Under the pieces are notes generated by a model that was given only the letters and a program-made list of their open reading frames with translations, did no database searches and had not been told where the DNA came from. The position numbers and the translations under genes are program-made. This document shows, in pieces, positions 1-5,255 of a DNA stretch of 64,000 nucleotides. The stretch's first letter is position 1, and every line of letters starts with the position of its first letter. This DNA is from Nitrosotalea devaniterrae (GTDB lineage Archaea > Thermoproteota > Nitrososphaeria > Nitrososphaerales > Nitrosopumilaceae), in assembly GCA_900065925.1 (NCBI GenBank), contig LN890280.1, positions 922,451 to 986,450 of the forward strand, given 5' to 3'.

Positions 1-963
1 ACTAATAATGATCTCTGCAGATTTTTCAGCGTTAACTTTTCCTAATTCCTCAAGAACATATCCAATCGATTCATAACCAAATCCATCTCTAATTACATAT
101 TTTGCCAGAATATCTAAAATTTTTTCATATTGGTTTTTTACAAAATGAGTTAGCGCATAACATACATGTTGTCTTACATTAATGTTTGATTCCTCAGAAC
201 AGATTTCGAGAAATTTCATACTGGTAGATTCGTCGAATGGAGATCTAATCCAAATTCTATGTGCTAATGAAAATTTACATTCTAGCGAGTCTTTGGTGAG
301 AATTTCAATATTTTTTTCCGATAATTTTTTGTCAAAGCTATGTAGATCTAAGAATGCCTCAAAGCACTCTACCTTTACTTCTTTAGAACTAGATTTAGAA
401 GTGTTTTCTAATATTGAAAATATTTTTTCAATATTGTTCATCTTAGACTCTTTTGATATTACACGTAGTGTTCTGATTGCAGTTAGTTTATGATTAGGGT
501 TATCAGATTGCAATAGTTCGTCAATCAAGATATTACAATCGGAAGGTAAAACATTCACAGCACTTCCAATTAAGAAACTTGCATATGATGCAACATCATC
601 ATTTTTTAATAGTTTTCTAGCAATTTCCAGTCCCAATGTGGGATTTGACTTGCCTATGTTTAACAGTGCATCAATAATGGGTCCTTGTGCCATATCTTTT
701 TTGATTTTATTTAACAGAAAAGTAAGAAATTCAATGAATTGTTCATCCGAAGAAGCTAAGTCTTGCATTAGATTCGACACTGCATATAGCATCAAGAATA
801 GATCTCTTTCAACAATCCCTTTTGATAAATCGATTAATTCATCATTAGACAATTTAATTTGTTTTGCCGAAAGATAATCAGTTAGCTTATTACTTTTCCA
901 GTAATCCCATTTTTCTTTTTTGATCTGATCAATGATTTCATCTATTTTTTCTTGATTTGTCAT
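1..963 (-). CDS. HEAT/ARM-like helical-repeat protein, 3' end outside window
   Basis: The frame is open from an ATG at 963 to the left edge (321 codons, no stop), so the C-terminus is missing. The translation is almost entirely helical and reads as successive helix pairs of the HEAT/ARM type, for example the segments with DDVASYASFLIGSAVN, NHKLTAIRTLRVI, SSKEVKVECFEAFLDLH and NVRQHVCYALTHFV. No enzymatic motif is visible, so a protein-binding scaffold is likely. Its ATG overlaps the stop of the upstream proteasome-like gene in an ATGA arrangement, implying translational coupling and a shared job. It lies in a probable integrated element. The repeat assignment is from pattern only. Confidence 0.7.
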   Translation of the reverse strand, partial: MTNQEKIDEIIDQIKKEKWDYWKSNKLTDYLSAKQIKLSNDELIDLSKGIVERDLFLMLYAVSNLMQDLASSDEQFIEFLTFLLNKIKKDMAQGPIIDALLNIGKSNPTLGLEIARKLLKNDDVASYASFLIGSAVNVLPSDCNILIDELLQSDNPNHKLTAIRTLRVISKESKMNNIEKIFSILENTSKSSSKEVKVECFEAFLDLHSFDKKLSEKNIEILTKDSLECKFSLAHRIWIRSPFDESTSMKFLEICSEESNINVRQHVCYALTHFVKNQYEKILDILAKYVIRDGFGYESIGYVLEELGKVNAEKSAEIIIS

Positions 964-1652
964 GATGTACCAACTTCCTCACTATCAGAAAAAACTTTCT
1001 TATCAGAGTTAATATCAAATTTAATATCCAAGCTAGCGATATCAGAATCTGTAAATCTCATTCGTCGAGAAATTGTGCCAGAGTTTAAAAATCTTACAAT
1101 ATCATACCCAAGGGTTTCATCACTAATTGTCTTAATTGATTTAGATACTTCCATCATTGTTGCTACAATATACTTAGACGCATCCTCACATGCCATTTCT
1201 CTTAAATTGATGTTTTGTAGAAAATGTTTAGCAAATAGTTGTGCCTTCATATCACCAATATAAATAACAGGCACATAATCATTTTCACTAAATGTTGGTA
1301 CTTGACCAATTGCTTCGATCTCTTTTAACTTATAGACACCATCAGTTTTGACTACCAAAAAGCCATGTATGCTTGAATCTACAGCGATGTTATGAGATTC
1401 CACATTGAAATAATTATCTATGATAGACTTAATTTCTAATTCAATATTTTGTGAATTAATAGAATTTGAATTTAATCGATCTAACAATACTTTTGGCAGA
1501 TTATTAATTCCCGATAAAGCAATAAAGAAATCCCCATTACCAGACAACAAACATTTCGTGAACTCTGCGCCTAGATTCAAATCATAAGTTTGTTTCCTAT
1601 CAGATACAATTACAAACCCATCTGAACAACTAGCAAAAATAAGTAATGTCAA
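960..1652 (-). CDS. Proteasome-like Ntn-hydrolase family protein
   Basis: A 230-residue protein from a TTG start. The N-terminus TLLIFASCSDGFVIVSDRK resembles the first strands of proteasome beta/HslV-type Ntn hydrolases. After removal of Met1 the first residue would be Thr, with Asp at mature position 17 and Lys at 32, close to the canonical Thr1/Asp17/Lys33 triad; the later ALSG segment fits the next conserved region. It has no propeptide, unlike many beta subunits. It is not obviously one of the standard archaeal proteasome genes (psmA/psmB), being divergent and sitting in accessory DNA. The stop overlaps the start of the HEAT-repeat gene. A 31-codon ATG frame ends exactly over its TTG start, so the true start needs care. 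Protease activity is inference. Confidence 0.6.
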   Translation of the reverse strand: MTLLIFASCSDGFVIVSDRKQTYDLNLGAEFTKCLLSGNGDFFIALSGINNLPKVLLDRLNSNSINSQNIELEIKSIIDNYFNVESHNIAVDSSIHGFLVVKTDGVYKLKEIEAIGQVPTFSENDYVPVIYIGDMKAQLFAKHFLQNINLREMACEDASKYIVATMMEVSKSIKTISDETLGYDIVRFLNSGTISRRMRFTDSDIASLDIKFDINSDKKVFSDSEEVGTS

Positions 1653-2069: not shown

Positions 2070-2636
2070 CTAGTTAGTTGTTCTTTTCACTATTAGTTTT
2101 GTACTGTTTTCATCTTTGATTATTTGGAATGGCGCTACTGCACAAGTTAGCGTAGCAAGATAATTCCTAACTGACTGCTGACTGCCATGCCCGGTTCTAC
2201 TCTTGCATAGGTATACACATGAATCAAGAGCTTCTCTATACTCGATACTTCCATCAGTTGCTACACGCTCTGTTACATACTGTTCAGTAATCTGAAAGTT
2301 AGATTGGTTGATCTTTATTTCAGTAGATGCATCGTTGGGGGTTTTATCTTCGACGTAATTTCTCTCTCTCACGAAATTGCTATCTTCGTTCTTTTTGAGC
2401 TTCTCATTGGCCTTTATCTTCATATCATAATTGTCCGGTTTTTTGTTATTACATGATCCGCATGCCAGGACTATGTTCTCAAGCCTATTGTCATTCCTAT
2501 TATCGTTTAGGTGTTCATAGATAAACGAGTAGTAGCCAAGTGGGTAGTTGCAGTAAAAACACTTGAATCCGCCGTCTCTTTTTATCAGCAACGGCAGATA
2601 TTCCATCTTTTGCTTCTCAGATAGATGTTTACTCAT
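2070..2636 (-). CDS. HNH endonuclease family protein
   Basis: 188 residues. Near residues 20-65 it has a complete HNH/McrA-like zinc nuclease module: CFYC, then EHLND with conserved His and Asn residues, then ENIVLACGSCNNKK. The two CxxC pairs hold the structural zinc, and the His/Asn residues form the beta-beta-alpha metal active site. The C-terminal half (about residues 100-188) is not recognised. HNH nucleases are common in mobile elements and phages, matching the nearby recombinase. It could act in element movement, defence or homing; nothing seen decides between them. Confidence 0.8.
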   Translation of the reverse strand: MSKHLSEKQKMEYLPLLIKRDGGFKCFYCNYPLGYYSFIYEHLNDNRNDNRLENIVLACGSCNNKKPDNYDMKIKANEKLKKNEDSNFVRERNYVEDKTPNDASTEIKINQSNFQITEQYVTERVATDGSIEYREALDSCVYLCKSRTGHGSQQSVRNYLATLTCAVAPFQIIKDENSTKLIVKRTTN

Positions 2637-2743: not shown

Positions 2744-2965
2744 TCAAGGATTCCTTCTTTTTAGATCCAGATTTTGTTCAATGATTTCTTTGGAAAGTAT
2801 TTTTTCATTAAACGGGTGTTTTGTAATGTGCTCTTCACAGACCAGTATCACATCATTGCCCATCACGCCTCCGTCATAAGTGACAAGATATTTTTTGGGG
2901 TTAGTATCACGGCACATACGTCTAGGTATCAAGGCATTAGATTTTTTATCATCCGACGCCATCAT
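2744..2965 (-). CDS. Small unrecognised protein coupled to RHH regulator
   Basis: 73 residues, with an ATG at 2965 overlapping the TGA of the upstream ribbon-helix-helix gene (ATGA), so the two are almost certainly co-translated. It contains MCRDTNPKKYLVTYDGG and VLVCEEH-like segments, with two Cys and two His residues that could hold a metal. No family was recognised. Placed after an autoregulated DNA-binding protein, it could be a second component of a regulatory or toxin-antitoxin-like pair, but no toxin motif is visible. Confidence 0.6.
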   Translation of the reverse strand: MMASDDKKSNALIPRRMCRDTNPKKYLVTYDGGVMGNDVILVCEEHITKHPFNEKILSKEIIEQNLDLKRRNP

Positions 2966-3132
2966 TTTTGATTCCGTTTTGTTCCCTTCCTTTGTACAGT
3001 AGATGAAATTTGTTCAAAATATTCTAGTATGATATCTTCTACAAATCGTGAGCGAGGCTCATGCTTGCCTTTACTGTCGTCGATTTTCTTGATGGTCTTA
3101 TCTTCAAGGCTGATTGTAACAGGTTCGCGCAT
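2962..3132 (-). CDS. Ribbon-helix-helix (CopG/MetJ-type) regulator
   Basis: A 56-residue protein starting MREPVTISLED. The beta strand PVTISLE followed by helices around KTIKKIDD and RSRFVEDIILEYFEQ is the classic RHH pattern; such proteins dimerise and insert the strand into the DNA major groove. The start (3132) is divergent from the winged-helix gene at 3185, and a perfect 11-bp inverted repeat lies between them, so this protein is the natural candidate to bind it and regulate both directions. Its TGA overlaps the next gene's ATG. Confidence 0.75.
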   Translation of the reverse strand: MREPVTISLEDKTIKKIDDSKGKHEPRSRFVEDIILEYFEQISSTVQRKGTKRNQK

Positions 3133-4031: not shown

Positions 4032-5189
4032 TTATGGGTTATCTTCTTCTTTTGATTCCCTTATTCGTTTCACTTGTAATTTCAAAATCTCTACATCTTC
4101 TCTTAATCTTTCCTTATCTAGTAATGCATTTTCTAATTCGGTTTTATCTTTCTTGAGGCTCTCATTCTCTATAGTTTTCCTTTGTGAGTCATCTATAGTA
4201 AGATCAAGTATTGCTTTTTTAAATTCGGTAAAACATTCCTCTCTTGTAGGTTTGAAATAAGTACCATCAAGACCATTCTTGTGAGCCATTAATTTTTCAG
4301 CAATGTTTGAATTAATTTCATTATTGATCTTCAAAATAGTGTTGAATCTTTTCCTAAATCCATATACGACTGCCTTATCATAACGGTTACCAGTCTTACT
4401 TCTCTTGATTCCTGCATGCTGTACCAAATCGTCCATGATAGTAGCCAGATTATCATATGTCAAATGCGAGAACTTTATTTTATTTCCGTCCTTGTCAATC
4501 TTGTCATATTCGTTTACAAATATTGGTGATTCATCGGTAAGGGTTTCGCCATTGATCTTCCTTGCTGTAAAATATCGGTTTAGTGCTTTCTTTGCTTCTG
4601 GTGTCAAAAATGCCCAATATCCTTCTGGACTGTTATCATAGATCCTAATTGCTAGACAGTCATTAGACATTTCAACTAAATGACTCCTTCTAAGTATTGG
4701 GTCTATTATTGCACTTGGTCTAATCCCGGTGGATGCAATAAAATGCACTAGGGCTTTTGTTCTAAGTTTCTTGGTAGATTCCAGCATTTGTTTGATGTCT
4801 TCATTTGTAAAAGGCATCCCACCGCCTGCAATGCCATTGTCTTTTGGAATCAGTTTATGAAGTATCTTCTTGTAGACCACTATTCTATTCATATCTAGTA
4901 GTAATTCAACTGGCGAAAGTTTAGTCCTTATTGTATTACCTTTAATCTGCTTATCAGACAAGTCCATTATCCAATTTTCCAATATTTCTTGAATCTTATC
5001 ACTTTGGCATACTTGATCATAATTTGTAAAGTTGGTATATCTTAGAAATTCCTTTAATGAATAATTGTAGTTATGAAGTGTTACTTGATTAGGTACAGCT
5101 TTTTTGAATATTTTGTAAGAACGACACTCTTCTAACTCAATGGCTTTAACCTCGTTAGATACTTGTTTCAATGAACTTGCTAATGTCAT
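4032..5189 (-). CDS. Tyrosine recombinase/integrase
   Basis: 385 residues. The N-terminal ~110 residues resemble a SAM-like core-binding domain (NYSLKEFLRYT). The catalytic domain has the first active-site Arg in TGIRPSA, a second in YGFRKRF (the usual HxLRH box, with the first His replaced by Tyr), then AHKNG and a Tyr in GTYF that fits the nucleophile. The last ~45 residues are a Lys/Glu-rich coiled coil (ENESLKKDKTELENAL). It is probably the integrase of an element occupying at least 1-5189; no attachment site or tRNA is visible at the right boundary. A fixed cellular Xer-like role is less likely given the neighbours. Confidence 0.85.
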   Translation of the reverse strand: MTLASSLKQVSNEVKAIELEECRSYKIFKKAVPNQVTLHNYNYSLKEFLRYTNFTNYDQVCQSDKIQEILENWIMDLSDKQIKGNTIRTKLSPVELLLDMNRIVVYKKILHKLIPKDNGIAGGGMPFTNEDIKQMLESTKKLRTKALVHFIASTGIRPSAIIDPILRRSHLVEMSNDCLAIRIYDNSPEGYWAFLTPEAKKALNRYFTARKINGETLTDESPIFVNEYDKIDKDGNKIKFSHLTYDNLATIMDDLVQHAGIKRSKTGNRYDKAVVYGFRKRFNTILKINNEINSNIAEKLMAHKNGLDGTYFKPTREECFTEFKKAILDLTIDDSQRKTIENESLKKDKTELENALLDKERLREDVEILKLQVKRIRESKEEDNP

Positions 5190-5255
5190 ATTAATATAAA
5201 AATCCGGTATGTTCTAGCCGTAATAGTTCTTTTTTACAGAAAACTTTATGAAAGC

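Follow-up and report, generated by a model that had tools for sequence, protein, structure and literature searches.

A proteasome-superfamily threonine hydrolase and a HEAT-repeat protein form a coupled, possibly antiviral gene pair on an integrated thaumarchaeal element

The window, that is the whole 64,000-nucleotide stretch of DNA analysed here, begins with two adjoining genes on the reverse strand, one encoding a 230-residue Ntn (Thr) hydrolase of the proteasome superfamily (positions 960 to 1652, TTG start, no propeptide) and the other a HEAT-repeat protein (positions 1 to 963), of whose 749 residues the window holds the N-terminal 321. The hydrolase ORF opens with TTG-ACA, encoding Met-Thr, and the residues that an initial annotation had placed close to the proteasome triad were confirmed in this frame, namely Thr2 (codon at 1647 to 1649), the nucleophile and residue 1 of the mature protein, Asp18 (1599 to 1601), corresponding to Asp17 in proteasome numbering, and Lys33 (1554 to 1556), corresponding to proteasome Lys33 with a spacing one residue shorter, all on the reverse strand. 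In addition, Gly48 (1509 to 1511, same strand) corresponds to Gly47, which forms the oxyanion hole in the proteasome (PMC8665760). An alignment of five sequences, in which the other members share 21-28% identity with the window protein, has just 11 invariant columns out of 223; all four catalytic positions are among these, with a chance probability of about 3e-6 (hypergeometric).

The start codon lies immediately 5′ of the Thr codon in six of six homologues (TTG, GTG, GTG, ATG, ATG and ATG) and five of these contain no alternative in-frame start upstream, making the start codon placement well supported, and the hydrolase has no propeptide, as originally annotated; the G058 reading frame is closed just two codons before the start. 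Given the known specificity of methionine aminopeptidase, by which the initiator Met is removed before Thr, methionine removal would expose the hydrolase Thr. Judged by its sequence, gene 1 encodes an intact proteasome-superfamily protein that has no propeptide and retains the nucleophilic Thr along with the Asp, the Lys and the oxyanion Gly.

Searches with the hydrolase against Pfam, NCBIfam and PADLOC returned no match, and the gathering score of PF00227 was not reached, the best hydrolase relative giving an E-value of 0.019 and 15 versus 22.4 bits. The top 16 matches of the hydrolase profile in the PDB were all proteasome subunits, at weak E-values of 0.06-0.36, and an hhalign comparison with a canonical archaeal beta subunit gave 92%. 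An AlphaFold2 model built from three input sequences (pTM 0.72, pLDDT 67) displays the strand and helix order of a proteasome subunit, including the core strands and helices H1-H4, and in the structure search suggested with the initial annotation, the best 50 Foldseek matches were exclusively 20S subunits and Anbu (best E 3e-8; 5nyj with TM 0.64/0.63 and E 7e-7). Phage proteins annotated as proteasome subunits or HslV are among its best viral matches. The hydrolase is therefore predicted to adopt the four-layer Ntn fold of the proteasome-like family. It lacks the propeptide, the alpha partner and the strong PF00227 score of a 20S beta subunit, and the source genome also encodes separate canonical proteasome subunits. 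Based on the catalytic residues and the predicted fold, and with the PF00227 score below the cut-off, we place it as a divergent proteasome relative rather than as a Pfam member.

Relatives of the hydrolase were found in five genomes (G048, G057, G058, G183 and G273) besides the source genome (G000), and scans of genome contigs yielded only the G058 and G183 loci. None was found in viral contigs or plasmids and only one weak, 44% partial match in phages. Among the weak profile matches, the two tested at phylum level and four at class level were canonical beta subunits, and most others at these levels were separate stand-alone proteasome-like proteins lacking a HEAT gene. Several Nitrososphaeria genomes carry varied stand-alone proteins of this kind (loci L024-L037, about 240-330 residues), which probably represent other proteasome-homologue families; both of the two tested exceed the PF00227 cut-off, and several adjoin transposase-like genes.

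Three of the relatives depart from the simple gene. In G273 (L059:7581-10379) and G057 (L014:7315-10107), the hydrolase domain forms the N-terminus of proteins of 931-933 residues, which keep all catalytic residues, continue into an S-layer-like middle region and a C-terminal cupredoxin (plastocyanin-like) domain and contain no HEAT repeats, thereby joining an enzyme from a cytosolic family to domains that are typically extracellular. In the fragmented G048 genome, the hydrolase gene (L012:1685-2368) is broken by an in-frame TGA, reflecting either a nonsense mutation or an assembly error.

The stop codon of the hydrolase gene and the start codon of the HEAT gene overlap in an ATGA (960 to 963, reverse strand), with the HEAT ORF starting at 963 within the junction sequence GGTACATCATGACAAAT, so the overlap initially reported is real; the corresponding overlap reads TTGA in G183 and ATGAATGA in G048. 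The HEAT gene is cut by the window edge and continues to about window position -1286, the complete 749-residue gene being available from the genome and ending in a domain with a conserved E-D-E arrangement. HEAT repeats occupy residues 1 to about 450, which supports the all-helical HEAT-like partner previously recognised from the N-terminal 321 residues; the match to HEAT_2 (PF13646), at about 1e-4, lies below the curated cut-off. The PADLOC HEAT-ARM and OloA models both match the protein, the latter at residues 34-330 with an E-value of 5e-14 over only positions 56-331 of its 596, and OloA also matches the HEAT relatives P0004, P0008, L041 and L055. Across 300 genomes of the class, the HEAT-nuclease-like family and a single HEAT-containing aminopeptidase-like protein (1e-5) were the only ones to reach OloA matches of more than 1e-5 strength, so the match is better than a generic HEAT similarity. 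The solenoid also contains a DMAQGP motif (residues 90-95; positions 679 to 696, reverse strand), which the four paired copies share in the form DMAxGP; a specific role in docking the hydrolase was rejected, since its D, A and G are also kept in hydrolase-free haloarchaeal relatives. No HEAT relatives were found in viral contigs.

Residues from about 546 to 749 of the HEAT protein form a conserved domain common to its archaeal relatives, including haloarchaeal plasmid proteins. Glu556 and Glu594 (E11 and E49 of the domain) are invariant in nine HEAT relatives and Asp581 is nearly so. Most of these nine, the window protein among them, have no Lys at the position where PD-(D/E)xK enzymes carry it; the relative at L056 possesses the full E..D..EVK. 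In hhalign, the domain scored 70% against one protein with a canonical PD..EVK and nothing against a second such protein. Its AlphaFold2 model is poor (pLDDT 54), with the predicted helix-strand-strand-strand-helix-strand order fitting a PD-(D/E)xK fold; the domain had no Pfam match, and Foldseek with this model returned nothing usable. We therefore regard the domain, with moderate confidence, as PD-(D/E)xK-like, and it may have lost nuclease activity or may lack it altogether, given the missing Lys, the poor model and the silent structure search.

Both genes lie on an integrated element of 13.0 kb. A tyrosine integrase gene (4032 to 5189, reverse strand; Pfam Phage_integrase, 1.4e-7) marks its right end, followed by the right attachment repeat GTAATAGTTCTTTTT (5220 to 5234), which is matched at 14 of 15 bp by a left copy, GTAATTGTTCTTTTT, at a distance of 13.0 kb and beyond the window. 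In six congeners (G001, G003, G004, G006, G011 and G015), the left and right flanks are joined directly and the site is empty, the joint falling inside the 15-bp repeat. The mobile element proposed at the outset is thus confirmed as an integrated thaumarchaeal element by its integrase, its flanking direct repeats and the empty site in relatives. Within the window, it additionally encodes an HNH-endonuclease-domain protein (2070 to 2636, reverse strand; Pfam HNH, 1.8e-4) and a small ribbon-helix-helix-like protein (2962 to 3132, reverse strand; weak RHH_1, E 0.038). Outside the window, the same element carries (L006:4864-8727) two different HEPN_AbiV genes (5e-23 and 5e-14) and an AAA_14-DUF4143 ATPase gene matching PADLOC PDC-S01 (6e-34). 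The pair sits on an island in the 1.8-Mb genome of an ammonia-oxidising-type archaeon.

At all four loci with a stand-alone hydrolase gene (G000, G048, G058 and G183; 23-33% identity), the HEAT gene follows directly, so that the pairing is conserved. The two genes overlap in three of the four pairs (G000, G048 and G183) and are separate in G058. These are the only four stand-alone pairs found, the G048 pair, with its in-frame stop, lying on a 3.4-kb contig and being cut by the contig end, and the G183 pair lying in an 85%-complete genome. Their flanks differ from locus to locus, placing the pairs in unrelated contexts: AbiV, PDC-S01 and an integrase in G000, an integrase with AbiEi/AbiEii in G183, and a transposase-like gene in G058.

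HEAT-nuclease-like genes also occur without a hydrolase, namely in G256, in G195 (two copies), in G042, as a second copy in G058 and on three haloarchaeal plasmids. The G256 gene has HsdM a few kb away, one of the G195 copies has a type I restriction-type helicase gene nearby, and the G042 gene is frameshifted and lies near a helicase gene; the region of the L055 copy, which belongs to G195, contains no defence genes. Most genomes with the HEAT family have no hydrolase beside it, so the enzyme may be an optional partner. On a Halorubrum megaplasmid (L041:4540-6618), a lone HEAT-nuclease-like gene has a BREX-5 pglZ a few kb off, and we regard its product as a candidate one-gene haloarchaeal defence protein.

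Gene 2 encodes a HEAT solenoid joined to a C-terminal domain that is conserved, and the coupled pair resides on an integrase element with known defence genes. A putative physical interaction between the Ntn hydrolase and the HEAT protein is likely. With confidence that falls a little short of an even balance, we favour the reading that the pair is a rare archaeal module against mobile elements whose Thr peptidase either controls the output of the HEAT-nuclease-like protein or carries it out. In this scheme, methionine removal would expose Thr1 of the hydrolase, the HEAT solenoid would recognise an invader or a damage signal and hold the hydrolase, the C-terminal PD-(D/E)xK-like domain would bind or cut nucleic acid, and the hydrolase, as a peptidase, would either activate the HEAT-nuclease protein or, on its signal, cleave a host or viral target. 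An anti-mobile-element, that is antiviral, role is suggested over that of a proteasome activator by the C-terminal domain, the missing HbYX tail, the length of 749 residues, the mostly hydrolase-free family and the defence genes nearby. For the hydrolase itself, activation or execution appears the most likely role, restraint of the HEAT-nuclease protein comes next and PA200-like activation is unlikely.

In the restraint reading, which we judge unlikely overall, the hydrolase would degrade or trim the HEAT-nuclease protein in healthy cells, like an antitoxin, until infection stops the hydrolase. The gene order would suit this arrangement, the hydrolase gene coming first and overlapping the next as in many toxin-antitoxin operons. 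The unpaired G058 HEAT copy (L057:6326-9010), which is 78% identical to the paired copy, has lost Glu556 and four DMAxGP residues, as if an unrestrained copy needed to be inactive. However, this copy has lost other conserved residues too, which fits plain decay, and the haloarchaeal and other HEAT-only relatives retain the E-D-E residues without any hydrolase.

It appears rather improbable that the pair serves the element itself, through stability, replication or plasmid competition, and not host defence. The pair does ride on an integrase element and the haloarchaeal HEAT relatives are found on plasmids, but the element also bears two AbiV genes and PDC-S01, and defence genes surround several of the relatives, although such genes also travel on elements of this kind for the benefit of the element.

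PA200 and Blm10, eukaryotic HEAT-repeat activators of about 1,800-2,100 residues, provided the precedent for the proposal in the initial annotation of a minimal protease/activator pair on a mobile element. An activator of this kind would cap oligomeric hydrolase, or else the 20S proteasome of the host, and open it. The conserved, coupled pair and its mobility stand, and the HEAT repeats, the co-conservation of the genes, the association with a proteasome-type enzyme and the canonical subunits available as possible targets all fit; the activator role is not supported. None of nine HEAT family members ends in HbYX (the C-termini being ISD, RAV, SIK and others), the 749-residue protein is less than half as long as PA200/Blm10, it carries the additional conserved E-D-E domain, which lies outside the window, the operon contains no alpha-type partner and most family members have no adjoining hydrolase gene. 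Its length, its C-terminal tail and its domains thus led us to reject an activator resembling PA200, and we consider a pair of this type very doubtful.

Least probable is a hydrolase that acts as a specific transferase, ligase or amidase and modifies the HEAT protein or some other partner. Connectase, a proteasome homologue working as a transferase/ligase, sets a precedent (PMC8665760), and this reading would suit the rare and narrow occurrence that specialised homologues typically show, but the hydrolase model retains both helix pairs H1-H4, whereas connectase lacks H1/H2.

Returning to the favoured reading of a defence module, many prokaryotic proteasome homologues have no assigned function, and the pair supplies one such orphan with genomic context in the form of a constant partner to which it is translationally coupled and of neighbouring defence genes, so that its function becomes testable through the hydrolase/HEAT pair. 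Searches of the open PMC literature turned up no proteasome homologue described as part of a defence system. If the pair does act in defence, threonine hydrolases would join the protease types already known from prokaryotic immunity. We tentatively propose, with the balance tilted somewhat against it, that this archaeal antiviral module would be the first immune system with an enzyme of the proteasome superfamily at its core. Its Thr hydrolase, free of a propeptide, would work with an OloA-like HEAT-nuclease-like protein, the first conserved genomic partner through which the function of an orphan homologue of this kind becomes testable.

The proteasome-like family comprises 20S beta, HslV, Anbu, BPH, WPH, ACC, PHI and connectase (Fuchs, Alva and Lupas 2021, PMC8665760), and the hydrolase shares with this family (PF00227 clan) the Thr1/Asp17/Lys33/Gly47 set and the predicted fold. 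Its lack of a propeptide is the rule for all proteasome homologues except 20S beta and HslV (PMC8665760). By contrast, it differs from the family in falling below the Pfam cut-off and in having a conserved partner gene that is not an AAA+ gene. The 2021 survey described 22 new proteasome-homologue families and reported that no genomic context hinted at a specific function (PMC8665760), and the hydrolase may belong to one of these families. The enzyme superfamily is a known one, and what appears new is its occurrence in a conserved pair associated with defence.

The C-terminal domain of the HEAT protein resembles the PD-(D/E)xK superfamily in its Glu, Asp, Glu order and in its predicted helix, three strands, helix and strand, and differs from it in the motif Lys missing from most sequences and in having no Pfam or Foldseek match. 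The element, with its tyrosine integrase, short direct repeats and 13-kb length, resembles the cryptic integrated elements of thaumarchaea, the majority of which are under 20 kb (PMC6563490, 2019), and differs from them in a cargo that includes the hydrolase/HEAT pair, that paper naming neither proteasome nor Abi. The HEAT protein shows a likeness to the Olokun defence system (OloA/OloB; PADLOC PDLC03925/PDLC03926), through the OloA match of its N-terminal about 300 residues. The hydrolase was rejected as an OloB, no OloB match being present in the source genome at E 10. The pair differs from Olokun in that the C-terminal half of OloA is unmatched and the hydrolase stands in the place of OloB.
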